DNA of 64,000 bases. It comes from Haloferax sp. Q22 (GTDB lineage: Archaea; Halobacteriota; Halobacteria; Halobacteriales; Haloferacaceae). The stretch is from the NCBI RefSeq assembly GCF_001482285.1, contig NZ_LOEP01000037.1:1-64000 (forward strand). The letters are read 5' to 3'. How positions within the stretch are numbered: the first letter of the stretch is position 1; every line of letters starts with the position of its first letter. The notes under the pieces were generated by a model. The model saw only the letters and a list, made by a program, of their open reading frames with translations, was not told the DNA's origin and ran no database searches. Shown here in pieces: positions 40,196 to 64,000 of this stretch. The position numbers were made by a program, and so were the translations under genes.

Positions 40196-40273
40196 ACCTT
40201 GACCAAATAGGTACACCAATATAAAATCATCCGTTGAATCAAGGAGAATGTGACGGAACTAATTATGTAACGC

Positions 40274-43429: not shown

Positions 43430-43513
43430 CGTTACACTCTGCCACACCGTGATACGTAACTGTTGCGCTCTACGCAGCATTGCGACGGTCGAGGTGGGTC
43501 CGCGGTCCGCCGA

Positions 43514-44272: not shown

Positions 44273-44304
44273 AGTTGGTTATGAATCCTCATCCCTCAAA
44301 TGTC

Positions 44305-44323
44305 TTTCCGCTATGGCCGGAAA
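44305..44323. promoter_or_regulatory. Palindrome upstream of the rhamnose-locus IclR gene
   Basis: TTTCCG-ctatggc-CGGAAA has perfect 6-base arms around 7 bases, a shape resembling IclR-family operators. Its core is one of seven TCCG-N7-CGGA sites seen in non-coding DNA of the window. Confidence 0.55.
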
Positions 44324-44484
44324 TGAGGAGGTGTTACGAGCGATGAACTCCGTGTGGGAAATTTAAATAATCTAGATAATTCAGATATTGTGGCTATTCA
44401 GGTAGACGAATGACGCGAAGATAGCAAGAAAGAAAGCGAGTACCCGAGGCGACCGAGCGCGGCGCGCTCGACCCGTGGGACGTC

Positions 44485-45513
44485 TCAGTTAAACTGCGGG
44501 ATGACTTCGTCCGCGAACAGTTCCATGCCGTCGGTGTCGGGGAAGTCGATGAACCAGCCCTGGAACTTCGTCACGCCCGCGTCGATGCGGCGCTCGATAG
44601 CTTCCGCGCACTCCTCGGGCGTCCCCATGATGAAGTACTCGCGGGCGTCTTCCTCCGTCACGATGGGCGCTTGGTCCTGGTACTCCGCTTCGAACTGGAT
44701 GGGCGTCATCAGGTCGAGCAGGCGGTCGAACTTCTCCTCGTCGCGCGTGCAGATGACGTGGCCGTCCCACGAGTACTCGATTTCGTCGGGGTCGCGGCCG
44801 ACGGTCTCGCAGTGGTCTTCGATGACGCCGATTTTGTGTTCGAGCGTCTCCACGTCGCCGTTGAACACGTCGGTGTTCCACACGTCGGCGTGTTTGGCGA
44901 CGAGTTTGAGCGTGACCTCCTCGCCCTGTCCGCCGACGAGGATGGGCGGATGGGGGTCCTGTACGGGACCGGGGACGCAGTAGGCGTCCTCGATTTGGTA
45001 GTGCTTGCCGTCGAAGCTCGCGCCGTCGCTGCCGGCAGCCCACATGCGCTTCATGAGGCGGATGGACTCGTCGAGGCGCATCAGGCGCTCGAAACCGTCG
45101 CGGTACTCCCAGCCGTAGGCGTCGTACTCCGGCTCGTGCCAGCCCGCGCCGAGGCCGAGTTCCAGCCGCCCGTCGGAAATCACGTCGAGCGTGGCCGCCA
45201 TCTTGGCGACGAGCGCCGGGTTGCGGTAGTCGTTACAGAGGACGAGCGAGCCGAGGTTGATGTCCTCGGTGAAACCAGCGATGGCCGACAGCAGCGTCCA
45301 GCACTCGTACTCGGCGTGGTCGCGGCCCAACAGCAGGTGGTCGGGTGCCCACACCGCGTCGAAGCCGAGTTCCTCCGCCTTTTGGACGCCCATCTTGGTC
45401 GTCTCCCAGTCGAGCGACTCGTACTGCGGCGTGTCGCGGTGCGTCGGCTCGGTCCCCTCGTCGGGCGCGCCGGCGAAGACGGGGACGTTGTACTCGAAAC
45501 TGATGTCAGACAT
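44485..45513 (-). CDS. LLM-class flavin/F420-dependent oxidoreductase
   Basis: The protein is 342 residues from ATG 45513 (MSDISFEYNVPVF); the longer in-frame sequence overlaps the dehydratase gene. The LLM barrel shows 'GFDAVWAPDHLLLGRDHAEYECWTLLSAIAGFTEDINLGSLVLCNDYRNPALVAKMAATLDVISDGRLELGLGAGWHEPE' and 'PVQDPHPPILVGGQG'. It is related to the LLM gene at 26369. No LLM step is known in the rhamnose pathway, so it may oxidize a side product or a methylated or modified sugar. It starts 2 bases after the dehydratase stop, so it is surely in that operon. Confidence 0.86.
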   Translation of the reverse strand: MSDISFEYNVPVFAGAPDEGTEPTHRDTPQYESLDWETTKMGVQKAEELGFDAVWAPDHLLLGRDHAEYECWTLLSAIAGFTEDINLGSLVLCNDYRNPALVAKMAATLDVISDGRLELGLGAGWHEPEYDAYGWEYRDGFERLMRLDESIRLMKRMWAAGSDGASFDGKHYQIEDAYCVPGPVQDPHPPILVGGQGEEVTLKLVAKHADVWNTDVFNGDVETLEHKIGVIEDHCETVGRDPDEIEYSWDGHVICTRDEEKFDRLLDLMTPIQFEAEYQDQAPIVTEEDAREYFIMGTPEECAEAIERRIDAGVTKFQGWFIDFPDTDGMELFADEVIPQFN

Positions 45514-45515
45514 CG

Positions 45516-46721
45516 TTACTCGATGGCGAAGTGTTCGAGCGCCTCGCGGTTCAGTTGGGTGCTGACACCGGGTTCGTCGGGGAGCGGGATCGACCCGTTC
45601 TCCGGCGACGGCGGGTTCTGGAAGATGGCGTCGGCGTAGGTCGACTCGCGTTTCTCCTGGCGCTCCTCGAACCACTCGGGGGTCGGGAAGTACTCCGCCA
45701 TCGGCATGTTCGTGTGGCCGGCGATGGCGTGGAGCGTCGGGTTCGTTCCGGCGTGCGGGATGACGGGAACGTCGTGGACTTCGGCCATGTCGGCGACCTT
45801 CTGGAGTTCCGTGATACCGCCGACGCGACCCACGTCGGGCTGGAGGATGTCGACCGCACCTTCTTCGAGGAGGTCCTCGTGGCCCCAGCGGGTGAACTCG
45901 TGTTCGCCGCCCGAAATCGGCATCGGCGCGGCCTCGCGGACCTCGGCGTAGCCGGAGATGTCGTCGGCGATGACCGGCTCCTCGACCCACGCCATGTCGT
46001 ACTTGCCGAGGCGCTGGGTCATCTCCTTGGCGTACTTGACCGACCAGCCCATGTAGGCGTCGCCCGCGATTTCGATGTCGTCGCCGACGGCGTCGCGGAC
46101 CGTCGCGACGATTTCCTCGTTCTTCTTCATGCCCGCGCGGCCGTCCTCGGGGCCGTGGAGGAAGCGGAGTTTCATCGCGTCGAAGCCCTCCTCGACGTAC
46201 TGGATGGCCTCGCGCTCGAGTTTCTCCATGTCGACGGGGTGGAGGTTCGACGCGTAGGCGGGAATCTCGTCTTTAGTGGGGCCGCCGAGCAGTTCGTACA
46301 CCGGCTTGCCGGCGTCCTTCCCGGCGATGTCCCACAGCGCCTGGTCGACCGCGCTGATGGCCATGACCGCGACGCCCTTCCGGCCGAACGGGAGCGTAGC
46401 GCGGTACATCTGTTCCCAGAGGAGTTCGCGCTGCATCGGGTTCTCGCCGACCACGATTTTCGAGAGCGTCTCCTCGACGACGGTGGCGATGGCACCCGTG
46501 CCCCAGTTACCGACGCCGACGCCGGTGATGCCGGCGTCCGTCTCGACCTCGACGACCACGTCACCCACGGGGCCCATCCACTTGCGGCGGGCCTGCGGGT
46601 TCTCCCCGTCGACGTTGCGGTACTCGTCGTACTTCGACATGATGGTGACGAGCGGGAATTCGATGAACTCGCCCCACGACTCGTTGCTGATTTTCGTCGC
46701 TGAGATGTCTGTAATCTCCAT
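45516..46721 (-). CDS. Enolase-superfamily acid-sugar dehydratase, probable L-rhamnonate dehydratase
   Basis: The protein is 401 residues. Metal ligands are Asp221 ('AGDAYMGWSV'), Glu247 ('WVEEPV') and Glu273 ('SGGEHEF'), with catalytic His323 ('VIPHAGTNP'), the mandelate-racemase-type set. Blocks 'LHGPEDGRAGMKKNEEIV', 'DILQPDVGRVGGITEL' and the C-terminal 'NGSIPLPDEPGVSTQLNREAL' align well with bacterial L-rhamnonate dehydratase. It would convert L-rhamnonate to 2-keto-3-deoxy-L-rhamnonate. Other deoxy-sugar acids (L-fuconate) remain possible. It is first in a pair with the LLM gene. Confidence 0.86.
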   Translation of the reverse strand: MEITDISATKISNESWGEFIEFPLVTIMSKYDEYRNVDGENPQARRKWMGPVGDVVVEVETDAGITGVGVGNWGTGAIATVVEETLSKIVVGENPMQRELLWEQMYRATLPFGRKGVAVMAISAVDQALWDIAGKDAGKPVYELLGGPTKDEIPAYASNLHPVDMEKLEREAIQYVEEGFDAMKLRFLHGPEDGRAGMKKNEEIVATVRDAVGDDIEIAGDAYMGWSVKYAKEMTQRLGKYDMAWVEEPVIADDISGYAEVREAAPMPISGGEHEFTRWGHEDLLEEGAVDILQPDVGRVGGITELQKVADMAEVHDVPVIPHAGTNPTLHAIAGHTNMPMAEYFPTPEWFEERQEKRESTYADAIFQNPPSPENGSIPLPDEPGVSTQLNREALEHFAIE

Positions 46722-46905
46722 GATTTGTTTGGTACGACCTCACATCCAATCGGCACGGGTAAAATAGTTTCTGTCGTTGAGCGACCGGTGGCCCGGAGAG
46801 GTCGCTGTTTCGTCGGTCGGCCCCGCCGTCAGTCGGTCAAAGAAGCCTCGAATCGGTCGGTGATGAGACGGCGACGCCTCGGTGGGGAGCTTCTTTCGCG
46901 TCGTT

Positions 46906-47940
46906 TCAGCCGTCGAACTGGAAGACCGGCTTGCAGGTCTCGGAGTCGAGGAAGGCCTCGAACGCCTCGGCCGGCTCATCGACGCTGTAGGAGGTGTCGA
47001 GAATCTTGTCGACCGCGATCTCGCCGCGCTCCATCAGGCGGAGCGCCTGCTCGAAGTTGGTCCACGTCGAGCCGTAGGAGGTGTTGATGTCGATTTCACC
47101 GCGGACAGTCGAGGTGAGGCTGAGTTCGCTCGGCGAGTTCGGGATGCCGACGACGACGATTTGGCCGCCCTTGCGGACCACGTCGTTCCCGGAGACAACG
47201 CCGCTGTGGTGGCCCGTCGCGTCGAAGACCACGTCGAAGCCGATGCCGTCGGTCTGGCTCTCGACCCGCTCGTCGAGGCCGCCTTCCTCCTGGAGGTTCA
47301 CCGTGTCGATGCCGAGGTCTTCGAGTAGCGGGAGGCGATACGCCGCGTCCTGTCCGAGGCCGGAGACGACGACGTTCGCGCCGAGGGAGTCGGCGACGGC
47401 GGCGACGAGCATGCCGATGGGGCCCGGCCCTTCGACGAGGACGTTGTCGCCGGGCGTCGTCACCGACTGGTCGAGGACCGCGCGCGTGGCGATGCTCGTT
47501 GGCTCGGTGATGGCGGCGTGCCGGAGGGGAACGCCCTCGGGCACCGCGTGGACGTGTTCGGGCGTGACGGTGACGTACTCCGTGTACGCGCCGTCGCGGT
47601 GCATGCCCGTAATAGAGAAGTTCTGGCAGACGTTGGGCTGGCCGTTCTGACACTGGAAGCAGTGGCCGCAGTCGTGAATCGGCTCCTCGACGACCTTGTC
47701 GCCGACCTCGAACGTCTCGACGTTCTCGCCGACTTCCGTGACCGTCCCGGAGTACTCGTGGCCCATGATGCGCGGGATGGGAATCCACTCGTAGCCGCCG
47801 TCGTACTTGTAGGCGTGGGCGTCGCTACCACAGAGACCCGCGGTGTGGACCTTGATGAGCAGTTCGTCTGCACTGGGAGTGGGAACCTCCCGCTCTTGTG
47901 TCTCTACCGAGCGCGGCCCGGTCTGAATAATGGCTTTCAT
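46906..47940 (-). CDS. Zinc-dependent alcohol/polyol dehydrogenase
   Basis: The protein is 344 residues from ATG 47940 (MKAIIQTGPRSVE). It is a medium-chain dehydrogenase: catalytic zinc site 'GLCGSDAH' and 'GHEYSG', structural zinc set 'CGHCFQCQNGQPNVC', and a nucleotide domain with 'EGPGPIGMLVAAVADSLGANVVV'. It is similar to threonine/sorbitol dehydrogenases. In this locus it may oxidize L-rhamnose, L-fucose or a related sugar, or handle lactaldehyde. It is a single gene with its own promoter carrying an imperfect palindrome. Confidence 0.87.
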   Translation of the reverse strand: MKAIIQTGPRSVETQEREVPTPSADELLIKVHTAGLCGSDAHAYKYDGGYEWIPIPRIMGHEYSGTVTEVGENVETFEVGDKVVEEPIHDCGHCFQCQNGQPNVCQNFSITGMHRDGAYTEYVTVTPEHVHAVPEGVPLRHAAITEPTSIATRAVLDQSVTTPGDNVLVEGPGPIGMLVAAVADSLGANVVVSGLGQDAAYRLPLLEDLGIDTVNLQEEGGLDERVESQTDGIGFDVVFDATGHHSGVVSGNDVVRKGGQIVVVGIPNSPSELSLTSTVRGEIDINTSYGSTWTNFEQALRLMERGEIAVDKILDTSYSVDEPAEAFEAFLDSETCKPVFQFDG

Positions 47941-47969
47941 AGTTGCAAATGACCGTGTGGGATCGTCTC

Positions 47970-47986
47970 GTTTACACCATGTGAAC
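47970..47986. promoter_or_regulatory. Imperfect palindrome upstream of the zinc dehydrogenase
   Basis: GTTtACAccATGTgAAC keeps seven of eight arm pairs. It lies between an ATATTAAT element (47993-48000) and the dehydrogenase start, a place where a repressor could act. Confidence 0.35.
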
Positions 47987-48123
47987 ACACCGATTAATAT
48001 GTTTGGGTGCGGGCGGAGAATTTCGGCCGTAGCGCGGCTGCAGCCGCGGCTACACCGGGCAAGCTGTTGGCTATATCCGGCGACATGCCTTGTGTCCGCC
48101 ATCACGAACAGTAAGACGACGGC

Positions 48124-48993
48124 TCACCCGAGGTCGACGTGCCGCCGGAACGACTTCCCGGTCAGCCACGACCGGTCGGCCGTCGACAGCGAGTCGACCT
48201 GTTTGAGCCAGTTGCACGCCTCCGCGTAGCTGGCAACGTCGCTGACGTTCGGGTAGTCGGAGCCCCAGACGACCCGCTCGCGACCGAAGGTGTCGAGGAG
48301 CCACCGGACGTGGTCGTGCATGTCGGCGTAGGGGAACGCCGAGTCGGACATGTGGACGATTTCCGAGACCTTCACCGCGACCGAGTCGTGTTCCGCGAGG
48401 TCGGCGAACCGGCTGAACGTGCCCTCGTCGGTGGGCGTCTCCGGGCCCGCGTGGGCGAAGTGGTCGAACAGGTAGGTGAGTTCGGGATACGACTCGACGA
48501 GTTCGAGCGCCTGGTCGAGCTGGCCGTGGTCGCAGAGAATCTGAACCGTGGCGTCGTGTTCGACCGCGACCTCCCAAAAGGCGGTCTCCTCGACGCTCTC
48601 TCGGAGCCACGTCACGCTCGGGTCGAACGTCTCCCACATCCGGTCGTACGGGCAGGCCGCGCCGAGTCGGAAGCCGAAGACGCCGTCGGTCTCCATGCAG
48701 CGGTCGAGGCGGTCGACGGCGTCGTCGGCGAACGGGTCGAGCATCACGATGCCGTGGAGTCGGTCGTACTCCGCGGCGACCCGTCGGGTGTACCAGTTGT
48801 CCGTCCAGTCGCAGATAGGGTAGCCCACGACGACGGCCTCGTCAACGCCGTTTCGGTCCATGTCGGCGAGCAGGCGTTCGGCGGTGTAGACGGTGTGTAC
48901 GTCGAAACTGTCCACGAGGTCCAAGATGGGGCCGTTGGTCCACGGGTGTTCCGGACTCGCCGCACCCCACGCGTGGGTATGAGTATCTATCAT
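48124..48993 (-). CDS. Amidohydrolase-family lactonase, probable sugar-acid lactonase
   Basis: The protein is 289 residues with a TIM-barrel amidohydrolase of the COG3618/PF04909 type: 'MIDTHTHAWG' (HxH metal motif), 'FGFRLGAACPYDRMW', 'YLFDHFAHAGPE' and 'RVVWGSDYPNVSD' with the catalytic Asp. The group includes L-rhamnono- and L-fucono-lactonases, which open the lactone made by sugar dehydrogenases. It is divergent from the mutarotase gene, sharing a 79-base promoter region. Alternative: a decarboxylase of the same fold. Confidence 0.84.
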   Translation of the reverse strand: MIDTHTHAWGAASPEHPWTNGPILDLVDSFDVHTVYTAERLLADMDRNGVDEAVVVGYPICDWTDNWYTRRVAAEYDRLHGIVMLDPFADDAVDRLDRCMETDGVFGFRLGAACPYDRMWETFDPSVTWLRESVEETAFWEVAVEHDATVQILCDHGQLDQALELVESYPELTYLFDHFAHAGPETPTDEGTFSRFADLAEHDSVAVKVSEIVHMSDSAFPYADMHDHVRWLLDTFGRERVVWGSDYPNVSDVASYAEACNWLKQVDSLSTADRSWLTGKSFRRHVDLG

Positions 48994-49072: not shown

Positions 49073-49375
49073 ATGGCGCGAATCGCGTTCCACCTAGAGA
49101 TTAAAGACGGCAAGCGAGAGGAGTACCGAACGAAACACGAGAACGTCCCCGAGGCGCTCGAATCCGCCTATCTGGACTCTGACGCCGGCCTTCAGACGTA
49201 CAGCGTCTTCGAGAAGGACGGCCACGTCTTCGGCTTCATGGAAGTCGACGACCCGGAAGCCATCCAGGAAGTAATGGACAACAGCGAGGCGCAAGCCGAC
49301 TGGGCGGAGGTCATGAGCGGCATCACCGTCGAGACCGACGACAGTTGGATGGACGAAGTCTACCGGATGGTCTGA
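49073..49375 (+). CDS. rhaM: L-rhamnose mutarotase
   Basis: The protein is 100 residues, the usual length of RhaM/RhaU. The sequence 'FHLEIKDGKREEYRTKHENVPEALESAYLDSDAGLQTYSVFEKDGHVFGFMEVDDPEA' and the C-terminal 'WMDEVYRMV' match the family, with the catalytic His in 'KHENV' and the Tyr and Trp of the sugar pocket. It interconverts alpha and beta L-rhamnose. GGAGG 5 bases before the ATG (49064-49068) is a good ribosome site. It is the clearest evidence that the locus handles L-rhamnose. Confidence 0.88.
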   Translation: MARIAFHLEIKDGKREEYRTKHENVPEALESAYLDSDAGLQTYSVFEKDGHVFGFMEVDDPEAIQEVMDNSEAQADWAEVMSGITVETDDSWMDEVYRMV

Positions 49376-51114: not shown

Positions 51115-52182
51115 TCAGTCGAGCGCGGCCGCGGCCATGAGGAACCAACCCTGCCCGTAGGGCGTGTCCGTCAGGGGTGCTTCGGGACCGCCCGGCGGCC
51201 CGGCGACGCGGTTGACTGCGCCGTCCTCGCCGACGACGCGGGAGACGGCCGCGAGCCCGTCTTCGGCGGGTTGGCGGTAGGTCTCCTCGTCGAGGATACC
51301 GAGGTCGATGCCGCGGGCGAACGCGTAGGCGAACATGAGCGTCCCCGACGACTCAAGCGGCGTGTGCGGGTCGTCGACGAGATTGTGCCAGAAACCGCTG
51401 CCGTCCTGCAGCGGGAGAAGCGCCTCGCAGTGCGACCGGAACAGGTCGATGAGGTCGTCGCGCTTCGGGTGGTCCTCGGGGAGCCGTTCGAGCACGTCAG
51501 CCGACGCGGCGGCGGCCCAGCCGTTGCCGCGCGCCCAGAACGCGCCCTGCGGGTAGTGGTTCGGCTGTTCGACCCAGATGTGACGGAACAGGCCCGTGTG
51601 GCCGTCGCGGAGGTGCGCGGCGTGAATCAGAATCTGGTCGACCGCCTCGTCGAAGGCGTCGTCGTCGCCCGCGGCCGCGCCGTAGCGGGCGAGGAACGGG
51701 CACATCATGTAGACGGAGTCGATCCACAGCGACTTGATGCCCGCGAGTTCGGGGTCGTGGTGGGGGATGCCGCCGTCTTCGGTCCGCTCGAAGGACAGAA
51801 GCGACTCGTAGGCGCGTTCGGCCGCGTCGAGGTAGCGGTTCTCGCCTGTACTGTCGTAAAAGTCGAGGACGCCGTGGCCGATGGCGGTGCTGTTGTTCGT
51901 GTTCATGCACTTCTTGACGGTCAGCTCCCAGCTCGCCTCGTACTCGCGGCCGTGGCTGAAAACCTCAATCGGGTAGCTCGGGCCGTAGCTCAACTGCCCG
52001 GCGTCGTTCTGGGTCGCCACCGCGGTGTCGACGAAGTGCTTCGCGCGCTCGATCGACTCGTCTCCACCCTCGGCGAGCAGGCCGTTGATGGCGACGCCGG
52101 CAATCCACGACTGTCCGTCGATGTCCAACGACCGGAGATACGACGCGGCGCGCTGGACTGGTGTAGGCTCGTCTGTTGGCAT
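51115..52182 (-). CDS. GH105/GH88-type unsaturated uronyl hydrolase
   Basis: The protein is 355 residues from ATG 52182 (MPTDEPTPVQRAA). It is an (alpha/alpha)6-barrel glycoside hydrolase: 'IDSVYMMCPFLARYGA' carries the probable catalytic Asp (equivalent to the YteR 'DxxYM' Asp), 'WVEQPNHYPQGAFWARGNGWAAAASADVL' is the family signature, and it closes with 'DTPYGQGWFLMAAAAL'. The family removes the unsaturated uronic acid left at oligosaccharide ends by polysaccharide lyases, for example unsaturated galacturonosyl-rhamnose. There is no signal peptide, so it works inside the cell on imported oligosaccharides. This strongly implies lyase-generated substrates. Confidence 0.87.
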   Translation of the reverse strand: MPTDEPTPVQRAASYLRSLDIDGQSWIAGVAINGLLAEGGDESIERAKHFVDTAVATQNDAGQLSYGPSYPIEVFSHGREYEASWELTVKKCMNTNNSTAIGHGVLDFYDSTGENRYLDAAERAYESLLSFERTEDGGIPHHDPELAGIKSLWIDSVYMMCPFLARYGAAAGDDDAFDEAVDQILIHAAHLRDGHTGLFRHIWVEQPNHYPQGAFWARGNGWAAAASADVLERLPEDHPKRDDLIDLFRSHCEALLPLQDGSGFWHNLVDDPHTPLESSGTLMFAYAFARGIDLGILDEETYRQPAEDGLAAVSRVVGEDGAVNRVAGPPGGPEAPLTDTPYGQGWFLMAAAALD

Positions 52183-52320
52183 GAGTACAGTACCCACACG
52201 AATACGTGCGAGGATGAAAAATGTATCCCATGGCGTCGCGCCACCACCTGACGGCGGCCGTGCGCGCCGGTCGGTCAGCCGGTCCGAAACCGAGGAGCGC
52301 TCGTTCGTCGCAACAGACTC

Positions 52321-52347
52321 GTTCCCCAGGCGGGAACAGATATATAC
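52321..52347 (+). promoter_or_regulatory. IclR promoter with palindrome and TATA box
   Basis: GTTCCCC-agg-CGGGAAC (52321-52337) is an inverted repeat followed at once by GATATATAC (TATA box, about 52339-52347), 24-32 bases before the leaderless ATG at 52371. Similar 17-base sites recur at 56913, 57067 and 57132. Confidence 0.6.
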
Positions 52348-52370
52348 GGCTCGGGTCCGACTGTCACACC

Positions 52371-53144
52371 ATGAGCCCCCAACCGAACAAACGCCCCGGC
52401 CGAACAATCCGCTCGGTCCAGATAGCGTTCAATATCATCGACCTCCTGCAGGAGGAGGCGGGCATCGGGGTGACGCGAATCGCCGACGAGCTCGGCCACT
52501 CGAAGAGCACGGTCCACAGCCACCTCCGAACGCTCGAAGAGCGGCGCGTCATCGTCCGCGAGGGCGACGGCTACCGTCTCGGTCTGCGCTTCCTCGACGT
52601 CGCCTCACACGTCCGCGACCAGATAGGCAACTTCGACATCGTCCAAAAGGAGGTCGACTCGCTGGCCGAGGAGACGGGCGAAATCGTCCAGTTCGGCGTC
52701 GAGGAGTACGGGATGGTCTCGTACCTCCACAAGGCGCAGGGCGAACACGCCGTCGAGACGCTGTCGAGGGTGGGAACCCAACAGCCGATGTACTCCACGT
52801 CGCTCGGCAAGACGATTCTCGCGTACCTCCCTCCCGAGCGCATCGAGGAAATCGCGGCGGCGATGGAGTACGAACCCAAGACGTCGAACACCATCACCGG
52901 ACCCGAAGAGCTGTTCGAGGAACTCGAGACCATCCGCGAGCAAGGGTACGGCATCGACGACGAGGAGAACATCAACGGCCTGCGCTGCGTCTCCGCACCG
53001 GTCAAGAACGACGAGACAATCCTCGGCGCGATCAGCATCACCGGCCCGTCGAGCCGGTTTACCGAGGACCGCCTGCACGGCGAACTCGCGGACTACGTCC
53101 GGAGCGCCGCGAACGTCATCGAACTGAACACGAAGTTCTCCTGA
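52371..53144 (+). CDS. IclR-family regulator (uronate half of the locus)
   Basis: The protein is 257 residues from ATG 52371; in-frame upstream codons precede the promoter and are rejected. Winged helix 'RSVQIAFNIIDLLQEEAGIGVTRIADELGHSKSTVHSHLRTLEERRVIVREGDGYRLGLRFLDVASHVRD', then effector domain 'EIVQFGVEEYGMVSYLHKAQGEHAVETLSRVGTQQPMYSTSLGKTILAYLPPERI' and 'GLRCVSAPVKNDETILGAISITGP'. It is divergent from the GH105 gene. The palindrome abutting its TATA box suggests autoregulation. Confidence 0.9.
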   Translation: MSPQPNKRPGRTIRSVQIAFNIIDLLQEEAGIGVTRIADELGHSKSTVHSHLRTLEERRVIVREGDGYRLGLRFLDVASHVRDQIGNFDIVQKEVDSLAEETGEIVQFGVEEYGMVSYLHKAQGEHAVETLSRVGTQQPMYSTSLGKTILAYLPPERIEEIAAAMEYEPKTSNTITGPEELFEELETIREQGYGIDDEENINGLRCVSAPVKNDETILGAISITGPSSRFTEDRLHGELADYVRSAANVIELNTKFS

Positions 53145-53163: not shown

Positions 53164-54615
53164 TCAGTAGTTCTCGTAGATGGTCTTCACCGACGAGAAG
53201 AAGTCGAGGCCGGCGTCGCCCTGCTCGCGGTACGTGTTGGTGGACGAGTCCTTGTAGCCGCCGAAGGGGACGTGGAGTTCGAGACCGGTCGTCTTCTCGT
53301 TGATTTTCGCGACGCCCGCTTCGACCTCGTTGACGAAGCGCTTGCCTTCGCTGAGGTCCTGCGTGACGATGCTGGCCGACAGGCCATAGTCAACATCGTT
53401 GGCGAGGTCGAGCGCGTCCTCGAAGGAGTCAGCCTTGACGACCGCCAGCACGGGTCCGAAAATCTCCTCTTGGGCGATGCGAGCGTCGTTTTCGACGCCG
53501 GAGAACACGGTCGGCTCGACGAAGTAGCCGTCGTCGTAGTCGTCGCCGGAGAGCCGGCTGCCGCCGGCTTCGAGCGTCGCACCCTCCGAAGCGCCGATGT
53601 CGATGTATTCGAGCGTCGAGGACAGTTCGTTCTCGGAGACGTGCGGGCCCATGTCGGGGTCGTCGAGCCCGTCGCCGACGACGAGCGACTCGGCGTAGTC
53701 AGAGATGGCCGCGACGAACTCGTCGTACACGTCCTCGTGGACGATGGCGCGCGAGGTGGCCGTACACGACTGGCCGGTCGTGCCGAACGCGCCGACGCCG
53801 ACGGTCTCGGCGGCGTCTTCGATGTCCGCGCTGGGCATCACGACGGTCGGGTTCTTCCCGCCCATCTCACACTGGACGCGCTTGAGGTCGACCGCGGCCG
53901 TCTCGGCGACCATCGTCCCCACGGCGGTGCTGCCGGTGAAGGAGACGCCGTCGATGCGCTCGCTCTCGATGAGCGGGCCGCCGACCTCGCTGCCGGAGCC
54001 GGTGATGGTGTTCGCCACGCCGGCCGGGAGGCCCGCGTCGTCGAGGCATTCGAGGACAATGGAGACGACGCCCGGAGCTTCGGACGCCGGCTTGAGGACG
54101 ACCGTGTTGCCGGCGGCGAGCGCCGGGGCGAGCTTCCAGACAGGGATGGCGATGGGGTAGTTCCACGGCGTGATGAGCGCGACCGTGCCGAGGGGTTCGT
54201 GCTTCGTGTAGAGGTCCTTCCCGGGGGCGCTGGCGGACTTGACGGTGCCGCCGAAGTCCCGGGCCTTCGCGCCGTAGTAGTGGAAGATGTCGATGGCGCG
54301 CTGTACCTCGCCGCCCGCCTCGGAGCGCGTCTTGCCCTCCTCGCGGACGAGCACCTCGGTCGCCTCTTCTTTCCGCGCTTCGAGGTTGTTGCCGGCCTCG
54401 CGGAGAATCGCGCCGCGGGACGGGCCGGGTGTCGACGCCCACTCGTCCTGCGCGGCGACAGCCGCGTCAAGCGCCGCCTCGACGTCCGCTTCGGAGGACG
54501 CTGGGTGGATGCTGACGACTTCGCCGGCCGCCGCGGGGTTCGTCACTTCGAACGTCTCTCCCGACTGGGGGTCGGTCCATTCGCCGTCGATGAAGTTACC
54601 GTAAGTTCTCGACAT
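53164..54615 (-). CDS. Aldehyde dehydrogenase, probable 2-oxoglutarate-semialdehyde dehydrogenase
   Basis: The protein is 483 residues from ATG 54615 (MSRTYGNFIDGEW). The aldehyde dehydrogenase core has Asn152 ('TPWNYP'), Glu250 ('CEMGGKNP') and catalytic Cys284 in 'GQSCTATSR'. The 'G-Q-x-C-T-A-T-S-R' context is typical of ketoglutarate-semialdehyde dehydrogenases, which finish oxidative pentose and uronate pathways. Lactaldehyde or succinate-semialdehyde activity cannot be excluded. With the KdgD-like and uronate dehydrogenase genes nearby, the ketoglutarate semialdehyde role is favoured. Confidence 0.87.
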   Translation of the reverse strand: MSRTYGNFIDGEWTDPQSGETFEVTNPAAAGEVVSIHPASSEADVEAALDAAVAAQDEWASTPGPSRGAILREAGNNLEARKEEATEVLVREEGKTRSEAGGEVQRAIDIFHYYGAKARDFGGTVKSASAPGKDLYTKHEPLGTVALITPWNYPIAIPVWKLAPALAAGNTVVLKPASEAPGVVSIVLECLDDAGLPAGVANTITGSGSEVGGPLIESERIDGVSFTGSTAVGTMVAETAAVDLKRVQCEMGGKNPTVVMPSADIEDAAETVGVGAFGTTGQSCTATSRAIVHEDVYDEFVAAISDYAESLVVGDGLDDPDMGPHVSENELSSTLEYIDIGASEGATLEAGGSRLSGDDYDDGYFVEPTVFSGVENDARIAQEEIFGPVLAVVKADSFEDALDLANDVDYGLSASIVTQDLSEGKRFVNEVEAGVAKINEKTTGLELHVPFGGYKDSSTNTYREQGDAGLDFFSSVKTIYENY

Positions 54616-54755
54616 ACGAGTTAGCCATGCACACCCATCACTAAGTAAGCTTCTCATGCCGAGCGGCGACGCCCACCGCGCGCTCGTGACCGTCGCAAGG
54701 CGTGAGCGAAGCGAATTTGGAGCGTTCAGAAGGATACCGACGAGGCGCGACCGCC

Positions 54756-55762: not shown

Positions 55763-56800
55763 TTAATCGTCCATGAGAGATTCGAGCTCGCGCGCGAGGC
55801 GCTCGCCGATGCGAATCATCGCGTCGTCGCCGGGGTGAACGAGGTCGGTCGTCATCCCGCTGGCGGTCGGCAAGAGGTCGGGCCCCTCGACGAGATGGAC
55901 GTTGTCGTAGCCGCACTCGGCGACCACGTCGCGGAGGTGCTCGCGGAACGTCTCGGAGAGCGTCGCTTCCTCGTGATCGCGCTTGTACTCGCGCACGTGC
56001 GGGAACAGCGTGATGCAGGCGACGGGTTTCGTCGGGTTCGCCGCGGCGACGGTCTCGACCATGTCCGCGGCCCGTTCGCGGAACTCGTCGGGCGAGAACC
56101 GACCGACCATATTCACTGAAAGCGAGAGCGTCGCCACGTCCCAGTCGTCGCGGGCGGCGATGTGCTCGGCCATCGCGGGGTCACAATAGGCGGTCCCGCA
56201 GGAGCCGAGGTTTATCGGGTCCGCGCCGAGCCGCCGGGCCGTCTGGTTGACGTACGTGAGCATCTCCGCCGACGGGTCCTCGCCCTCCGTAATCGACGTG
56301 CCGTACGCGAGGTATCGGAGACTGGGAACTTCGTCGGCAGTCGGCGGCCGCCGCGCGCCCTCGACGTCGTGGTAGTAGATGTGGCCGCCGCGGTGGTCGC
56401 CGGGGAAGATGAGTCGGCACACCTCGGGCGCGTAGCGCATCTCGCCGGTGGCGTCGGGGTCGAGGTCGGAAAGCGACTCCGGGGGAGACAGTTCGACCGT
56501 CTTCGGTTCCGGCCCGAGCGTGAACTCCTCACCTGTCGCCTGAAAATCCCCCCAGAACGGACGAACGAGGCTGTCGCGCTCCTCGGAAGAGAGCGTGATG
56601 CGGACCGTCTCCGCCTCCGGGACGAACCGAATCTCGGTCCCCGCCGGGTGGGACATCCGCGTCTGCGCGCCGGTGTTCAGGCCGCTCCTGACCGCCTCCG
56701 GAACGCGGAGCAATCGAAGACCCTCACGGGGTCGAACCCGTTGGAGCGCCCTGACGTTGTGGAACTGAATGTCGTCGTGCTGGATATCGTCGTGCTGCAT
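55763..56800 (-). CDS. SGNH/GDSL-type hydrolase, possible carbohydrate esterase
   Basis: The protein is 345 residues from ATG 56800, about 30 bases after a GATAAGTA element; a GTG at 56827 is an alternative. An N-terminal beta domain of about 130 residues is followed by the SGNH core: 'YLAYGTSITEG' (nucleophile Ser), 'NLGSCGTAYC' (Gly block), 'SLSVNMVGRF' (Asn block) and 'DLVHPGDDAMIRIGERL' (Asp-x-x-His). Such enzymes remove acetyl groups from polysaccharides, including rhamnogalacturonan. There is no signal peptide, so it would act on imported fragments. Confidence 0.82.
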   Translation of the reverse strand: MQHDDIQHDDIQFHNVRALQRVRPREGLRLLRVPEAVRSGLNTGAQTRMSHPAGTEIRFVPEAETVRITLSSEERDSLVRPFWGDFQATGEEFTLGPEPKTVELSPPESLSDLDPDATGEMRYAPEVCRLIFPGDHRGGHIYYHDVEGARRPPTADEVPSLRYLAYGTSITEGEDPSAEMLTYVNQTARRLGADPINLGSCGTAYCDPAMAEHIAARDDWDVATLSLSVNMVGRFSPDEFRERAADMVETVAAANPTKPVACITLFPHVREYKRDHEEATLSETFREHLRDVVAECGYDNVHLVEGPDLLPTASGMTTDLVHPGDDAMIRIGERLARELESLMDD

Positions 56801-56912
56801 ACCGTGTGAGTCTCGCACACGCCACACCTACTTATCGCTACCTCCGGCGACCGACGCGCGGCGATGGGCGCGACGAAACTGGACGGGGACTGACGCCGAA
56901 TTGGCATCGTCG

Positions 56913-57444: not shown

Positions 57445-58383
57445 TCAGTCGATGACGCGGGCGATGCCGTCGTCGAGTTCCTCGTACAGTTCCTCGGCGC
57501 GGCGCTCGTCGCCGGCCGACAGCGGGCGGATCGGCTCGCGGACGTTCCCCCCGTGCAGGCCGGCCAGTTCGAGCCCCTTCTTCACCACCGGGACGCTTAT
57601 CGCGCCGGGGAGGTCGTTGTCCTGGCCCGTCTCGCCGCGGAGGTCTTGGAACGGAAGCGTCAGGTCGCGAATCTCGCGGGCGAGCGCCCAGTTCTCCTCG
57701 GAGAGCGCCTCGAACAGCGCGAGACCGATTTCCGGGCGGAAGTTACTGACGCCCGCGGAGAATCCCTCGATACCCTCGTTCCAGAACGAGACGGCGAAGG
57801 GCTCCGCGAGGCCGTCCACCCAGACCACGTCGTCGTCCGCGGCGGCGACGGCGGAGCCGAGTTTGACCGGGTCCTCGATGGCGTACTTGACGCCGACGAC
57901 GCCCTCGATGCGCGAGAGGTCGCGGAGGAAAGAGACCGAGGGGTCGAAGCCGCGGACGTAGGGAACGAGCGGCGTGTCGGTCGCGGCGTCGAGTTTCTCG
58001 TAGTAGCGGAGTAGTCCGCGCTCGTGGACGTAGGTGTGGTCCGGCGGCATGACCATCATCGCGTCCACGCCGATGCGGTCGTAAGCTTCCATCAGGTCGG
58101 TCGCAGCCTTCGTCGACCCGCCGACGCCGGCGAGGACGCAGGCGCTGTCGGGGAGTGCTTCGACGCTCGTCTCCGTCACGTCGACGCGCTCCTGTTGGGA
58201 CAGCGAGTGATATTCGCTGATGTTCGCGGCCGCGAGGAACGACGAGATACCGTCGCCGGAAAGCGACTTCGCGTTGGCTTCGAGTTTGTCGTGTTCTATC
58301 TCCAGGTCGTCGTCGAACGGCGTAAGCAAGCCGACGGCGACGCCACGGAGACGACTACGTACACGGTCGTCTGCGAGTGGCAT
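57445..58383 (-). CDS. DHDPS/NAL-family lyase, probable 5-dehydro-4-deoxyglucarate dehydratase (KdgD-like)
   Basis: The protein is 312 residues from ATG 58383 (MPLADDRVRSRL). The class I aldolase-type barrel has Schiff-base Lys166 ('GVVGVKYAIED') and Tyr142 ('VPYVRGF'). Blocks 'GISSFLAAANISEYHSLS', 'WVDGLAEPFAVSFWNEGIEGFSAGVSNFRPEIGLALFEAL' and 'VKKGLELAGLHGGNVREPIRPL' resemble KdgD, which dehydrates and decarboxylates 5-keto-4-deoxyglucarate to 2-oxoglutarate semialdehyde. A KDG-type aldolase is the main alternative. It diverges from the uronate dehydrogenase gene. Confidence 0.82.
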   Translation of the reverse strand: MPLADDRVRSRLRGVAVGLLTPFDDDLEIEHDKLEANAKSLSGDGISSFLAAANISEYHSLSQQERVDVTETSVEALPDSACVLAGVGGSTKAATDLMEAYDRIGVDAMMVMPPDHTYVHERGLLRYYEKLDAATDTPLVPYVRGFDPSVSFLRDLSRIEGVVGVKYAIEDPVKLGSAVAAADDDVVWVDGLAEPFAVSFWNEGIEGFSAGVSNFRPEIGLALFEALSEENWALAREIRDLTLPFQDLRGETGQDNDLPGAISVPVVKKGLELAGLHGGNVREPIRPLSAGDERRAEELYEELDDGIARVID

Positions 58384-58443
58384 GGTAGAGTCAATCTTGG
58401 TCAACCCTGATAAAGCCATCGTCAGTCCCGAATCCGGTGTTCG

Positions 58444-58609: not shown

Positions 58610-59449
58610 ATGGACGTCTTGATGACCGGCGTCTATGGCCGGTGCGGCACCGCAGTCATAGACCACCTGCACGACGACGACGCCTACGACTTCACGTACT
58701 TCAACCGCTCCGACCGCCCCGACGACCACCCCTACGGCGGCTACGACACCGTCGTCGGTGACGTGTCCGACTACGACGCACTCAACGACGCCGCGGAGGG
58801 ACAGGACGCCATGATTCACATGGCGGCGTACCCCTACACCGACGGCACGTGGGAGGACATCTTCGAGCCCAACATCATCGGGATGTACAACGCCCTCGAA
58901 GTCGCCCGCGAGAACGAGATCGAATCGTTCGTCTTCCTCTCGACCAACCACGTCATGGGCGGCTACGAGGACGAGTTCTCCCCCGAGATTTACGAACCGG
59001 GACACGGACTCGTCATCGGCCACGACGACCCCGTCCGCCCCGACTCGTTCTACGGCGCGTCGAAGGCCTACGGCGAGGACATGGGCCGGTACTACGTCGA
59101 GAACTACGAATACCCCAAGCAGTTCTACGCCCTCCGGGTGTGCAGCGTCCGGATGCCGGAGTACGACCACCCCTACGGCGACGCCGAGCAGGCCGTCGAG
59201 AACGGCGAGTTCGAGCGCGGGAGCGCCGAGTATGAAGAGACCGTCGGGCGCATGAAGGCGATGTGGCAGTCCCGCCGCGACTTTGCCCACGAAATCGACT
59301 GCTGTCTGCAGGACGACGACGTCGAGTTCGGCATCTTCAGCGGCGTGAGCGACAACCAGCGCCGGTGGTACGACCTCGAACACGCCCGCTCGCAGATCGG
59401 CTACCACCCGCAGGACGACGGCGAGGAGTGGGACAGCCCGCCGAAGTAG
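58610..59449 (+). CDS. Uronate dehydrogenase-like NAD-dependent sugar dehydrogenase
   Basis: The protein is 279 residues from ATG 58610 (MDVLMTGVYGRCG). It is an extended-SDR fold: glycine motif 'TGVYGRCG', 'GDVSDYDAL', 'FLSTNHVMGGYE' and the catalytic pair Tyr148/Lys152 in 'YGASKAYGEDMGRYY'. The 'STNHVMG' and 'YGASKAxGE' blocks are typical of uronate dehydrogenase, which oxidizes galacturonate or glucuronate to the aldarolactone. It would feed the KdgD-like and aldehyde dehydrogenase steps; no aldarate dehydratase is visible, unless the enolase-family protein at 45516 has that role. Other epimerase-family functions are possible. Confidence 0.84.
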   Translation: MDVLMTGVYGRCGTAVIDHLHDDDAYDFTYFNRSDRPDDHPYGGYDTVVGDVSDYDALNDAAEGQDAMIHMAAYPYTDGTWEDIFEPNIIGMYNALEVARENEIESFVFLSTNHVMGGYEDEFSPEIYEPGHGLVIGHDDPVRPDSFYGASKAYGEDMGRYYVENYEYPKQFYALRVCSVRMPEYDHPYGDAEQAVENGEFERGSAEYEETVGRMKAMWQSRRDFAHEIDCCLQDDDVEFGIFSGVSDNQRRWYDLEHARSQIGYHPQDDGEEWDSPPK

Positions 59450-59589
59450 TCCCGAAGTCCGAGCCACGTCCCGCTGTCTGTCCCGTCTGTTCCGTTTTCG
59501 ATTCTTCCGTCGACGCGTCGTCGCTGACGCAAGCGAATCTGATTCTGCAATTAAATTTATGTACGTTTGTTAAAAACGGATTCGTGGGT

Positions 59590-61248
59590 ATGAAAGACAC
59601 ACCCACAGCTAGCGATTCGAACGGAGCCTCGCTCACCAGACGAACTGCGCTCGCGCTCCTCGGCGGCACCGGCGTCGCGGCGCTGTCCGGCACCGCGGCC
59701 GCCCAGTCCGATGAGGAACGCGACGGCGACGGCGAAGAGAACCGCGGGGACGGTCCCGGAAACGACGGAAAGCCGTGGAATCGCGACGTCGACGCGAACG
59801 GCAACAGTCTGTATAACCTCGCGTCGCTCGACGTGGACCACATCTACACCTCGGCGCGCGACGCCAACGTTATCGTCTGGAAGGACGACGACGGAACGTT
59901 CCACGCGGACGGCGCGGACGGCGAAGTCGCGTCGGGCGACAGCGTCGTTCCAGTCGCGCAGGCGGCCGTCGACAGCCTCACCGAGGGGCGGACGTGGAAC
60001 GAGAAAGTTCTCATCGCCTCGCCCGGCGAGATTACGGGCGGGGACGGCAGCCTTGAACTCCCGAGTTACACGACCCTCGACGCGCCAACCACGCTCTCGA
60101 TTCCCGACGGGGAGTCGGTGCCACCGGTCGTTCGGGCCGTCGGCGCGGAACACATCGAAGTGGAATCGCTCGTCGTCGAGGGACCGGCGGCGATGGGTAT
60201 CCGACTTACCAGCTGTTCGAACGTCCGTCTCGGCGACATCCGCATCACGGGCGTGACGAGCGACGGCATCCGCATCGACGGCCGGGGCGACGCGCCCCGG
60301 TCGACCGACATCCAGATGGGGCAGATATACGTCGAGGGGAACGGCCACCACGGCGTCGAGACCTACGGGGTCGATCGCATCCAAATCGAGCAGGTCGTCG
60401 GCAACGACCCCGCAAGCTGCGTCGTCCTCCTCAACGACACCGTCGACGCGACGGTGAACAGCGTCGTCGGCCTCGAACCGGGCGGTCCCGCGGGCTACGC
60501 GACGTTCCGCGTCGCCAACGGTGCACACGACGTGACGGTCGGCGAGGTCGTCAGCCGCGGTGGCAACCGGGGCGTCTTCGGCGTCTCCGAGTGTTACGAC
60601 ATCACCATCGGCCACGTCAACATCGAGGGCGCGGAGGACCAGGGCATTCTCATCCAGAACTGCCGGGACTTCACCGTGCAGGGCGGCGTCGTCAAGAACA
60701 CGAACGGCGACGGCGTCCGCATCGACTCGCGGAACGACGGCGAACAGCTTCCCGCGGAAGGTATCTCGGTTAGCAACCTCCGCGTCTACGACGACCGCGA
60801 CGAGCCAAAACAGACGTGGGGAATCCTCGAAACCGGGCCGGCGTGCAACCATAACCGCATCGTCAACAACGACGTGCGAGGCGGCGGGACAACCCGGAAC
60901 ATCGGGATTTTCTCGAACACGACGGTCGTGCGGGACAACGTCGGCGGCGGCTTCGCCGACGGCGAGGTGACGCTGTCGGCCGGCGAATCGCCCGCGGCCC
61001 GCGTCGAGGGCGTCAGCGAGTTCCCCGACGTGACCATCCCGGGGAGCGTCGACGAACCGGAGGACTTCGAGGCGTCGGCACTGTCGGTCCGCGCGAAGCC
61101 CGCGACGACGGGGTCGTCGGAGACGTACGCGTGGGAGAGCTACGTGGAGTGGAACGGCTCCGCCGGGAGTTGGGACCTCGTCTTCGAGTGGCGCACTGAC
61201 CCCAACGTCGATGTGACGCTCGACTACGTCGTGGACAAGACGCGCTGA
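59590..61248 (+). CDS. Tat-exported right-handed beta-helix protein, possible polysaccharide lyase
   Basis: The protein is 552 residues from ATG 59590. The Tat signal 'SLTRRTALALLGGTGVAALSGTAAAQ' has a signal-peptidase-type AQ site and no lipobox. An acidic Asp/Glu/Gly linker follows. Residues about 150-430 are parallel beta-helix rungs ('NVRLGDIRITGVTSDGIRIDGRG', 'DITIGHVNIEGAEDQGILIQNCRDFTVQGGVVKNTNGDGVRI'). A C-terminal beta domain ends 'WDLVFEWRTDPNVDVTLDYVV'. Beta-helices of this kind include pectate/rhamnogalacturonan lyases and glycosidases; catalytic residues cannot be assigned by eye. Its place beside uronate genes suggests an extracellular depolymerase. Confidence 0.78.
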   Translation: MKDTPTASDSNGASLTRRTALALLGGTGVAALSGTAAAQSDEERDGDGEENRGDGPGNDGKPWNRDVDANGNSLYNLASLDVDHIYTSARDANVIVWKDDDGTFHADGADGEVASGDSVVPVAQAAVDSLTEGRTWNEKVLIASPGEITGGDGSLELPSYTTLDAPTTLSIPDGESVPPVVRAVGAEHIEVESLVVEGPAAMGIRLTSCSNVRLGDIRITGVTSDGIRIDGRGDAPRSTDIQMGQIYVEGNGHHGVETYGVDRIQIEQVVGNDPASCVVLLNDTVDATVNSVVGLEPGGPAGYATFRVANGAHDVTVGEVVSRGGNRGVFGVSECYDITIGHVNIEGAEDQGILIQNCRDFTVQGGVVKNTNGDGVRIDSRNDGEQLPAEGISVSNLRVYDDRDEPKQTWGILETGPACNHNRIVNNDVRGGGTTRNIGIFSNTTVVRDNVGGGFADGEVTLSAGESPAARVEGVSEFPDVTIPGSVDEPEDFEASALSVRAKPATTGSSETYAWESYVEWNGSAGSWDLVFEWRTDPNVDVTLDYVVDKTR

Positions 61249-62374: not shown

Positions 62375-64000
62375 ATGGCTGGAAAACGTTCAACCAACTG
62401 GAAGAGACGAGACCTTATCAAATACGGGGCGGTCGCTGGCACAGCGGGACTGGCTGGCTGTTTCGATAGCTCGGGGCAGACGACCGAAGACGGCAGCACC
62501 GAAGACGGCACGGACAGCGGTACGAGCACTGAGGGCGGCGCGACCATCGCCGACGACACTCTCGACTACCCCGCGGGCCGACCCGCGACGGACGTGCAGT
62601 TCAACCGCTACAGCCTCGGCAACTACGCGCACACCCTGCAGGACCAACTGTTCGAGGAAGTCGCGCGCGGCTACGCCGACGGGACGGTCCGACCCGACCT
62701 GCTCGAAGACATGAGCGTCGACGGGCGGACGCTCACGCTGACGTTCCCCGAGGGGTTCAAGTGGTGGAACGGCGACGACCTGACGGCCGAAGACTACTAC
62801 ATCGGCCTCGAAATCGACCGCCTGCAGTCGCCTGAACAGTCGCCCATCGAGAGCAACACGCTCGTGGACGACTACACCATCGAGCGGACGTTCAAGACGG
62901 CCGTCTCGCCCAACCTCATGAAGGCGAACGTCGCCGAGACGTTCGTCAACACCCCGCGGTCGGTCTACCGCGAATACCTCACGCGCTACGAGGAAGCATC
63001 GAGTGACAGCGAGCGCGAGAGCGTGACGAGCGACCTCCTCGACATGAGCATCACCACCCAACAGCTCATCGACGAGGGGCTCGGCAACGCGCTGTACCGC
63101 GTCACCGGCTTCAACTCCTCGGAGACCATCCTCGAGAAGTTCGAAGACCACCCGTACGCGAGCCGCACGGACATTCCGAACGTCCGCATCATCCCCGAAA
63201 CGACCTCCGACGTGGAGTCGCTGTCGGTGAACGACCAACTCGACATGAACCCCGACGTGCTCATGTCGGAGTCCCAGCAGTCCCGGTACCCGGACAACAT
63301 CGAGAACGTCTACCGGCTCAACTGGTTCCGTACCCAGAAGTTCACGTTCAACTTCAAGAACGAGCACATCGCGAGGCTCCCCGTCCGACGCGCCATCGTC
63401 AACGCGGTGGACTTCGAGTCGATGGTCGCTGCGATGCGACAGGCCGGAACCGTCGGCGCGCCCGCCGAGAACCAGACGGCCCTGCGCTCGACGATTCACG
63501 AGGAGTACCTCGGCTCCGACTTCGTCGACCAGCTCATCGACTACCCGGTCGGCAAGGACCTCGAAACCGCGACGCAACTGCTCGAAGACGCCGGCTACAC
63601 CAAGGAGAACGGCACGTGGGTCGACCCCGACGGCGAGTCCTTCACGTTCACCGTCCTCACGCAGAACAACAACACCCAGGTGCAGGCCACGAAGGTCTTC
63701 AACGACCAGCTCAACGCGTTCGGCATCCAGACGAAGATTAGCACGGTCAGCTCGACCGACTACTACCAGCGCCTCCAAACGTACGAGGCGGACATCTTCT
63801 GGATATGGCACGTCGCGAAGGCGCTGTGGCACCCGACGGCGTACTTCTCGAACAACTTCTACGGCATCGAGGTCGGCGACCCCTCCAGCGGGAACGAGAC
63901 CGGCCCGACGGGCAAGCCCTTTACGACGACCATCCCGAGCGAGGTCGGCGCGACCGAGATTTCGGGCAGCGGCAAGGAGATTCAGCCCGCACAGCTGATG
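62375..64000 (+). CDS. Family-5 ABC solute-binding lipoprotein, cut by the window edge
   Basis: The frame stays open to the end of the window (542 codons). ATG 62375 gives MAGKRSTNWKRRDLIKYGAV with a Tat motif and lipobox (GLAGCF), then a Glu/Asp/Gly/Thr linker. SBP_bac_5 features follow ('FNRYSLGNYAHTLQDQLFEEV', 'FPEGFKWWNGDDLTAEDYYIGLEID', 'FRTQKFTFNFKNEHIARLPVRRAIVNAVDFES'). A TATATTA element lies 30-36 bases upstream. Permease and ATPase genes are expected beyond the window. Some members of this family bind oligosaccharides, so it may import polysaccharide fragments for this locus. It is only distantly similar to the binding protein at 32980. Confidence 0.85.
   Translation, partial: MAGKRSTNWKRRDLIKYGAVAGTAGLAGCFDSSGQTTEDGSTEDGTDSGTSTEGGATIADDTLDYPAGRPATDVQFNRYSLGNYAHTLQDQLFEEVARGYADGTVRPDLLEDMSVDGRTLTLTFPEGFKWWNGDDLTAEDYYIGLEIDRLQSPEQSPIESNTLVDDYTIERTFKTAVSPNLMKANVAETFVNTPRSVYREYLTRYEEASSDSERESVTSDLLDMSITTQQLIDEGLGNALYRVTGFNSSETILEKFEDHPYASRTDIPNVRIIPETTSDVESLSVNDQLDMNPDVLMSESQQSRYPDNIENVYRLNWFRTQKFTFNFKNEHIARLPVRRAIVNAVDFESMVAAMRQAGTVGAPAENQTALRSTIHEEYLGSDFVDQLIDYPVGKDLETATQLLEDAGYTKENGTWVDPDGESFTFTVLTQNNNTQVQATKVFNDQLNAFGIQTKISTVSSTDYYQRLQTYEADIFWIWHVAKALWHPTAYFSNNFYGIEVGDPSSGNETGPTGKPFTTTIPSEVGATEISGSGKEIQPAQLM

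Follow-up and report, generated by a model that had tools for sequence, protein, structure and literature searches.

Organization of the locus

The window, by which we mean the whole stretch of 64,000 nucleotides that was analysed, carries a gene for an exported beta-helix protein among genes of sugar catabolism. The genes are listed below with the basis of each assignment.

42578 to 48993, reverse strand: rhamnose catabolism genes (amidohydrolase, zinc alcohol dehydrogenase, LLM protein, enolase-type dehydratase, IclR, FAA hydrolase)
49073 to 49375, forward strand: L-rhamnose mutarotase, rhaM (PF05336)
51115 to 52197, reverse strand: GH88/GH105 family gene (PF07470, 211 bits)
52221 to 53144, forward strand: IclR-type regulator (by eye; orthologues at the same place in the relatives' stretches L032 and L036)
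53164 to 54657, reverse strand: aldehyde dehydrogenase (PF00171)
55763 to 56827, reverse strand: SGNH/GDSL esterase (PF14606, PF13472)
57445 to 58419, reverse strand: DHDPS/KdgA family aldolase (PF00701)
58610 to 59449, forward strand: NAD-dependent epimerase/dehydratase family gene (PF01370)
59590 to 61248, forward strand: gene for an exported right-handed beta-helix protein of 552 residues (open reading frame)
62375 to 64000, forward strand: start of an ABC importer, a solute-binding protein gene running off the window (by eye, BLAST labels)

The original prediction placed the beta-helix gene next to uronate catabolism genes. Pfam confirms this at the family level and extends it to rhamnose catabolism; the more specific name of uronate dehydrogenase for the gene at 58610 to 59449 is read by eye. 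Among the rhamnose genes, the amidohydrolase, the enolase-type dehydratase and the FAA hydrolase are based on Pfam and the others on inspection by eye. In Halopiger, an annotated L-rhamnonate dehydratase lies within a comparable set of genes. The permeases and ATPases of the importer follow the solute-binding gene, past the window. An AT-rich string of 23 bases (59553-59575) was considered as a shared operator and rejected, as it recurs in the window once, far off and with 8 mismatches.

Further along the contig, 9-12 kb downstream, a sulfatase-like and a GH28 gene stand back to back (L088 8257-11351; contig about 70.3-73.4 kb), which hints at a sulfated substrate in Haloferax. The GH28 gene is found at about 71.7-73.4 kb of the contig, 10.5 kb past the beta-helix gene; GH28 genes number two in the carrier genome. 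A search of this genome with the models of PL1 (E up to 0.001), PL11 and PL22 gave no match, which fits a missing lyase.

Start codon and domain organization of the beta-helix protein

The gene starts at the ATG at 59590 and ends with a TGA stop codon at 61246-61248. Upstream, the frame stays open as far as a GTG at 59263. In the relatives L035 and L036, however, the open frame begins no more than 42 and 66 bases ahead of the homologous ATG, which supports the ATG at 59590 as the start. Residues are numbered here on the 552-residue protein; mature numbering and alignment columns are 60 lower. The protein is organized as follows, all on the forward strand.

59590 to 59709, forward strand: Tat signal peptide, about residues 1-40 (by eye)
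59710 to 59769, forward strand: acidic linker, residues 41-60 (read from the sequence)
59770 to 60009, forward strand: N-terminal module and helix cap, residues 61-140 (sequence comparisons)
60130 to 60939, forward strand: right-handed beta-helix core, residues 181-450 (AlphaFold2 model, fold matches)
60952 to 61245, forward strand: C-terminal all-beta domain, residues 455-552, kept in the long subfamily (alignment, separate fold prediction)

Secretion by the Tat pathway, as originally predicted, agrees with a motif read by eye, LTRRTALALLGG, in which the arginine pair is residues 17-18, and with an AAA-type cleavage site near residue 38. The linker is indeed acidic, with D or E at 9 of its 20 positions, and no anchor was seen by eye in the protein. 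Part of the N-terminal module (V.VWKD.DGT..ADG) is common to otherwise different proteins of haloarchaea and viral contigs (L014-L016, L038, L039), and is perhaps a common attachment module. The C-terminal domain was predicted, by itself, as six strands with a mean pLDDT of 71, in agreement with the beta domain expected there. A known fold for this domain was rejected: Foldseek gave no match at E up to 0.001, and the weak likeness to the C-terminal domains of phage tailspikes and depolymerases has a best VIA-align Z of 6.5, within the chance range.

Family matches and predicted fold

That no known lyase signature is visible in the protein was borne out by the model searches, in which no lyase family model of Pfam or NCBIfam matched it. 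Pfam gave only generic matches below threshold, Beta_helix at 24.6 bits (cut-off 25.9) and NosD at 17.9 (cut-off 23.6), and the NCBIfam scan gave nothing near a cut-off. PL1 (PF00544) and GH28 (PF00295) were unmatched at E up to 1. Within Pfam and NCBIfam, PL9, PL3, PL6, PL31 and other beta-helix lyase families gave no match either. A single-sequence search of PDB chains had no match at E up to 1. Two weak matches to tail-spike or tail proteins were found in PHROGs (E 5e-4 and 3e-3); a phage origin was rejected, the protein having no match among phage records at E up to 0.001. Two viral contigs match solely in the N-terminal part, and one of them (L038) lacks the residue cluster described below.

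The AlphaFold2 model, built from eight aligned rows, is only moderate (mean pLDDT 63) with poorly predicted termini. Within mature residues 121-390, however, 26 of the 27 ten-residue blocks have a mean pLDDT of 60 or more (range 54 to 91) and the strands are stacked. Together with Beta_helix matches, at E up to 0.1, in 37 of 39 family members, this supports the beta-helix rungs proposed for the protein. Foldseek placed the AlgE4 and AlgE6 C5-epimerase modules first (E about 1e-4), and VIA-align of the predicted model gave Z 30.4-30.9 for them, at 2.6-2.9 Å over 323-331 residues. The predicted model thus has the right-handed beta-helix A-module fold of AlgE-type epimerases. Phi29 gp12 came next (Z 28.5, 3.5 Å, 350 residues), and other helices, at Z 27 or less, followed; the beta-helix adhesin PfbA was present among the VIA-align matches. 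AlgE4 was also the top match when a profile was searched against PDB sequences (E 2.2e-4), with residues in the second half aligned. With 39 rows, it was found at 3e-4, ranked after seven designed 'Pizza' proteins, which were discounted as propeller repeats since their match is confined to profile positions 72-141. Of the two HMM alignments to AlgE4, the first had another register and low confidence, and was discarded. Comparison of a predicted structure with PL1, PL9 and GH28 had been put forward as a check. The comparison led instead to AlgE epimerases as the best fold match, and the PL1 and GH28 Pfam models stayed unmatched.

A conserved polar cluster on successive rungs

Conservation was assessed in 46 distinct members of less than 95% identity, two of 48 rows (L038 and L016, which have the N-terminal module only) having been removed. 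Conservation and the strands of the AlphaFold2 model define the following feature.

60271 to 60570, forward strand: candidate active-site cluster on successive rungs (R228, H254, E257, Y259, N282, Y303, R307, R327)

R228, H254, E257 and N282 are invariant (46/46 each), as are Y303 and R307 (45/45 each), while R327 (44/46) and Y259 (42/46) are nearly so. E257 is the sole invariant carboxylate of the cluster; position 283 is D or E in 40/46 members and position 230 is D in 37/46. Outside the cluster, R134 (44/44) and T161 (46/46) are also invariant. The cluster residues fall within the motifs GIRID, HHGVETYG, VLLNDT, GYATFR and RG of consecutive strands, and strand alternation suggests that the cluster side chains would face outward. 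The modelled helix thus holds an active-site-like cluster, with six invariant polar residues on successive rungs. The two actinobacterial relatives described below retain the cluster residues.

When rungs are counted from the profile alignment, the first residues of successive rungs, 150/174/197/226/250/275 in AlgE4, would pair with 226/255/278/303/328/352 of the window protein. Published text on AlgE4 names Tyr149, Asp152, His154 and Asp178 as its catalytic residues (PMC7385640). By rung counting, which is not a residue-level superposition, these stand opposite D225, R228, D230 and Y259, and so appear not to be kept in the window protein. Since the cluster lies, by this count, at the AlgE4 catalytic level but is made of other residues, it resembles an enzyme site at an equivalent position with a different chemistry.

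Distribution of the family

The carrier genome has one copy of the gene. In the class draw, 45 of 391 haloarchaeal genomes match the family profile (E up to 1e-10); four fragment-only genomes (G423, G034, G286, G165) were removed, leaving 41 with the helix, one partial. Within the genus Haloferax, 6/15 genomes have the helix gene, and close relatives of 93-96% identity occur in Haloferax prahovense, H. gibbonsii, H. marisrubri and H. massiliensis. A copy of 90% identity was found in Halorubrum lipolyticum. In that Halorubrum genome (L035), the dehydrogenase is 94% and the aldolase 82% identical, and the flanks are partly different, a pattern that suggests gene transfer between this Halorubrum and Haloferax. 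Candidatus Halobonum (L037 10001-13614) has a tandem pair, with 73% and 60% identity to the window protein; the second copy bears an additional C-terminal extension.

Sixteen records of the plasmid collection match, including Haloterrigena, Halopiger, Natrinema, Halostagnicola, Halomontanus and Halocatena; bacterial records of this collection number three, Treponema (26%) and the two actinobacteria named below. Most of the plasmid records are annotated as 'RICIN domain-containing' or 'right-handed parallel beta-helix' protein. The actinobacterial relatives are those of Nonomuraea gerenzanensis (36.9%, E 3e-36) and Cellulosimicrobium protaetiae (33.3%, E 3e-25); in the set used for conservation, the two proteins have 31-35% identity. 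The phylum draw outside Halobacteria gave one partial match (G569, profile 33-156). The C-terminal domain divides the family into two subfamilies, a long one that has it and a short one that lacks it. Of nine relatives scanned whole, four have a ricin-type domain over the cut-off and one a laminin-G-type domain.

Loci of relatives and natural absence of the gene

Pfam confirms PL11, PL22, GH78, GH4, GH28 and GH115 genes as neighbours in other haloarchaea. Among stretches with the long subfamily, 19/26 hold PL11, PL22, GH78, GH28 or GH105, and 21/26 hold one of these or a rhamnose/uronate gene, counts that are approximate and non-independent because they use BLAST labels and a home-made gene caller and because some stretches share a genome or belong to closely related species. 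Three of the five stretches without any marker hold GH115. For the short subfamily, the same approximate count gives the CAZyme set in 3/10 stretches and a CAZyme or rhamnose/uronate gene in 4/10, six being marker-less. The near-duplicates L033 and L055, and also L088-L091, were dropped from these counts.

Two plasmid loci illustrate the setting. By annotation, that of Haloterrigena turkmenica pHTUR01 has rhamnogalacturonan lyases, GH78, a GDSL esterase, an oligogalacturonate lyase and GH115, and that of Halopiger xanaduensis pHALXA01 has rhaM, GH78, GH28, an oligogalacturonate lyase and an L-rhamnonate dehydratase. Two PL11 and a GH105 are described in H. turkmenica (PMC3102087). Outside the archaea, one actinobacterial relative lies beside GH3 and PL8 genes, the Nonomuraea protein being two genes from a PL8 lyase, and the other lies beside GH43 genes. 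Co-location with rhamnose/uronate catabolism or pectin CAZymes, as in a haloarchaeal utilisation locus, is therefore observed.

Co-occurrence across the class draw points the same way. The long subfamily is present in 27 genomes of 15 genera, and rhaM is found in 27/27 of them and in 32/364 others (Fisher p 1e-25), while strong PL11 matches occur in 14/41 helix genomes and in 4/350 helix-less ones (p 5e-12); the genome counts are phylogenetically non-independent and common ancestry inflates both p-values. Four of 22 genomes with weak PL11 matches (G213, G404, G313, G325) were dropped. In 12 of the 14 co-occurring genomes, the helix gene and PL11 lie within 17 kb. The association with PL11 weakens when the long subfamily is taken by itself (8/27), and that with rhaM weakens in genomes that have the short subfamily only (5/14).

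The original prediction argued that the locus needs an outside enzyme to make the unsaturated ends that GH105 removes. Several findings speak against this argument. GH88/105 is present in 8/15 Haloferax genomes, including all 6 with the helix gene, and 2 of these 8 (L090/L091; G233, G265) lack the helix gene and keep GH88/105, rhaM and the importer. In both, the genes from the solute-binding protein through the amidohydrolase are conserved at about 93-98% identity, and a spacer of 87 bases between the dehydrogenase and a universal stress gene (L090 8207-8293, L091 8015-8101) replaces the helix gene; comparison of the spacer with the helix gene gave short, chance-like matches only. These conserved helix-less loci show the gene to be an add-on to a locus able to exist without it. 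Moreover, PF07470 spans both GH88 and GH105, and in NCBIfam the window gene matches, at E up to 0.01, a beta-galactosidase model only, with a score far under the cut-off, so that the premise of unsaturated ends is unproven. The two GH28 genes of the carrier genome, and the known lyases PL11 and PL22 beside relatives, also speak against the lyase step.

Proposed function

We consider it highly probable that the beta-helix protein is a secreted enzyme for a polymer of the rhamnogalacturonan I class. The fuller statement, that it is a secreted beta-helix lyase of a new family acting on rhamnogalacturonan I or a related rhamnose-uronate polymer, is one in which we place slightly less than even confidence. 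We infer catalysis, substrate and lyase chemistry from an export signal read by eye, a predicted fold, and the observed invariance of the cluster and context of the locus. What stands of the lyase-type protein first proposed is an exported beta-helix outside the PL and GH models tested, with an invariant, active-site-like cluster and a family place in pectin or rhamnogalacturonan loci; the lyase chemistry itself is a proposal.

In the mechanism that we propose, the enzyme would attack the polymer outside the cell and pass oligosaccharides to the adjoining importer and catabolic genes. The polymer would lie along the outer face of the parallel sheet, where R228, R307 and N282 could bind and neutralise the uronate carboxylate. 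H254, aided by E257 and Y303 or Y259, could then take the C5 proton and protonate the leaving group in a beta-elimination. The 4,5-unsaturated ends so produced would be stripped by the GH88/105 enzyme after import, and the released rhamnose and uronate would feed into the pathways of the window. The presence of sulfatase and GH115 neighbours makes ulvan-like or glucuronate-bearing polymers possible.

A glycoside hydrolase of GH28-like fold could act instead on rhamnogalacturonan or its side chain, using E257 and D/E283 or D230 as acid and base. The weak kinship with GH28 keeps this reading alive: 12/39 family members match GH28 weakly (best E 3.7e-4), 4/39 match a rhamnogalacturonidase model weakly (best E 3.3e-4), and comparison with a profile of nine haloarchaeal GH28s aligned 99 columns at 90% probability. 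The frequent carboxylates at positions 283 and 230 would suit a hydrolase, and relatives already adjoin the dedicated lyases PL11 and PL22, so that an extra lyase is unneeded there. On the other hand, the window protein itself has no GH28 match, and one relative scored 18.2 for GH28, below the cut-off of 22.9. The profile alignment is local, its stretch coming after most of the residue cluster. The catalytic aspartates of GH28 lie in the motifs NTD and DD, with GHG. This set is not conserved in the family alignment or consensus, for which a GH28 of the carrier genome (L086) served for comparison. We therefore regard a hydrolase as rather unlikely. A lyase is preferred on three grounds: Arg, His, Tyr and Asn abound in the cluster, where just one carboxylate is invariant; the best fold kin carry out lyase or epimerase chemistry; and the genome lacks PL1, PL11 and PL22 matches. 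Epimerases and lyases of the AlgE fold are described as having a common first step (PMC7385640).

That shared fold could also indicate a polysaccharide C5-epimerase, or another enzyme that modifies the polymer without cutting its chain. AlgE is the best match by fold and is matched by profile, and His, Tyr and Arg are present in the cluster. The Tyr, Asp, His, Asp set of AlgE is apparently lost, however, and the loci examined are catabolic. Degradation loci seldom need an epimerase, and we find this reading improbable. Slightly more improbable still is a non-catalytic glycan-binding or cell-surface adhesion protein, which the fold match to PfbA and the lectin-type domains of some relatives would favour, since six polar residues invariant from archaea to actinobacteria on neighbouring rungs exceed the usual needs of binding, no anchor is visible by eye and the neighbours are degradative.

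Comparison with known systems

With the AlgE4/AlgE6 A-modules, the protein shares the right-handed beta-helix, the best structural match, a profile match, and a conserved polar cluster that rung counting places at the corresponding height of the helix. It differs in being 15% identical, in having Arg, His, Glu, Tyr, Asn and Arg apparently in place of Tyr149/Asp152/His154/Asp178, and in belonging to catabolic loci of other sugars. AlgE7, which has an AlgE-type module, is also a lyase. The polygalacturonases and rhamnogalacturonan hydrolases of GH28 have in common with the family a beta-helix, similar loci and a weak profile kinship to some members, but the window protein is unmatched by their model and the aspartate set is not seen.

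PL11 and PL22 lyases are beta-propeller folds. Those of haloarchaeal pectin loci share with the beta-helix protein the loci and probably the polymer, but no Pfam family, and neither of their models is matched in the carrier genome. RbmB lyase and phage tailspike depolymerases likewise have a beta-helix lyase or hydrolase fold, and the C-terminal domain of tailspikes is faintly alike; they differ by an identity of about 8-16% in structural alignments, the lack of any phage record match and the catabolic setting here.

The family was not found in literature on haloarchaeal pectin and rhamnogalacturonan, rhamnogalacturonan lyase families or haloarchaeal beta-helix lyases. Judged by Pfam and NCBIfam, it would be a new carbohydrate-active beta-helix family with its own residue signature, for which a CAZy family may exist. 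More tentatively, and with doubt outweighing belief, we propose that the window protein founds a new polysaccharide lyase family of haloarchaea and actinobacteria, with an Arg-His-Glu-Asn-Tyr-Arg site on an AlgE-like helix, cleaving rhamnogalacturonan I or a similar polymer. If true, it would be the best candidate for the depolymerising lyase of a rhamnose-uronate polymer in a Haloferax genome without a PL1, PL11 or PL22 match.

The family is located in candidate loci for the use of pectic polymers by haloarchaea, whose genomes carry lyase genes. One study describes cultured haloarchaea with PL genes that did not grow on pectin or rhamnogalacturonan, and considers that these enzymes may have an unknown activity (PMC9726719); the lack of growth counts against the function proposed here. 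The defined residue set and the natural pairs of Haloferax genomes with and without the gene make the pectic-polymer question directly testable.

Two minor observations concern the genes around these loci. The LLM-class flavin-dependent oxidoreductase (window 44485-45990) is repeatedly close to a rhamnonate-dehydratase-like gene (L037, L040, L043, L093, L094, L101, L105). An SMC-like coiled-coil gene near the Haloferax locus (38246-40897) seemingly recurs, by eye, in another haloarchaeal family (L045 17217-19187).
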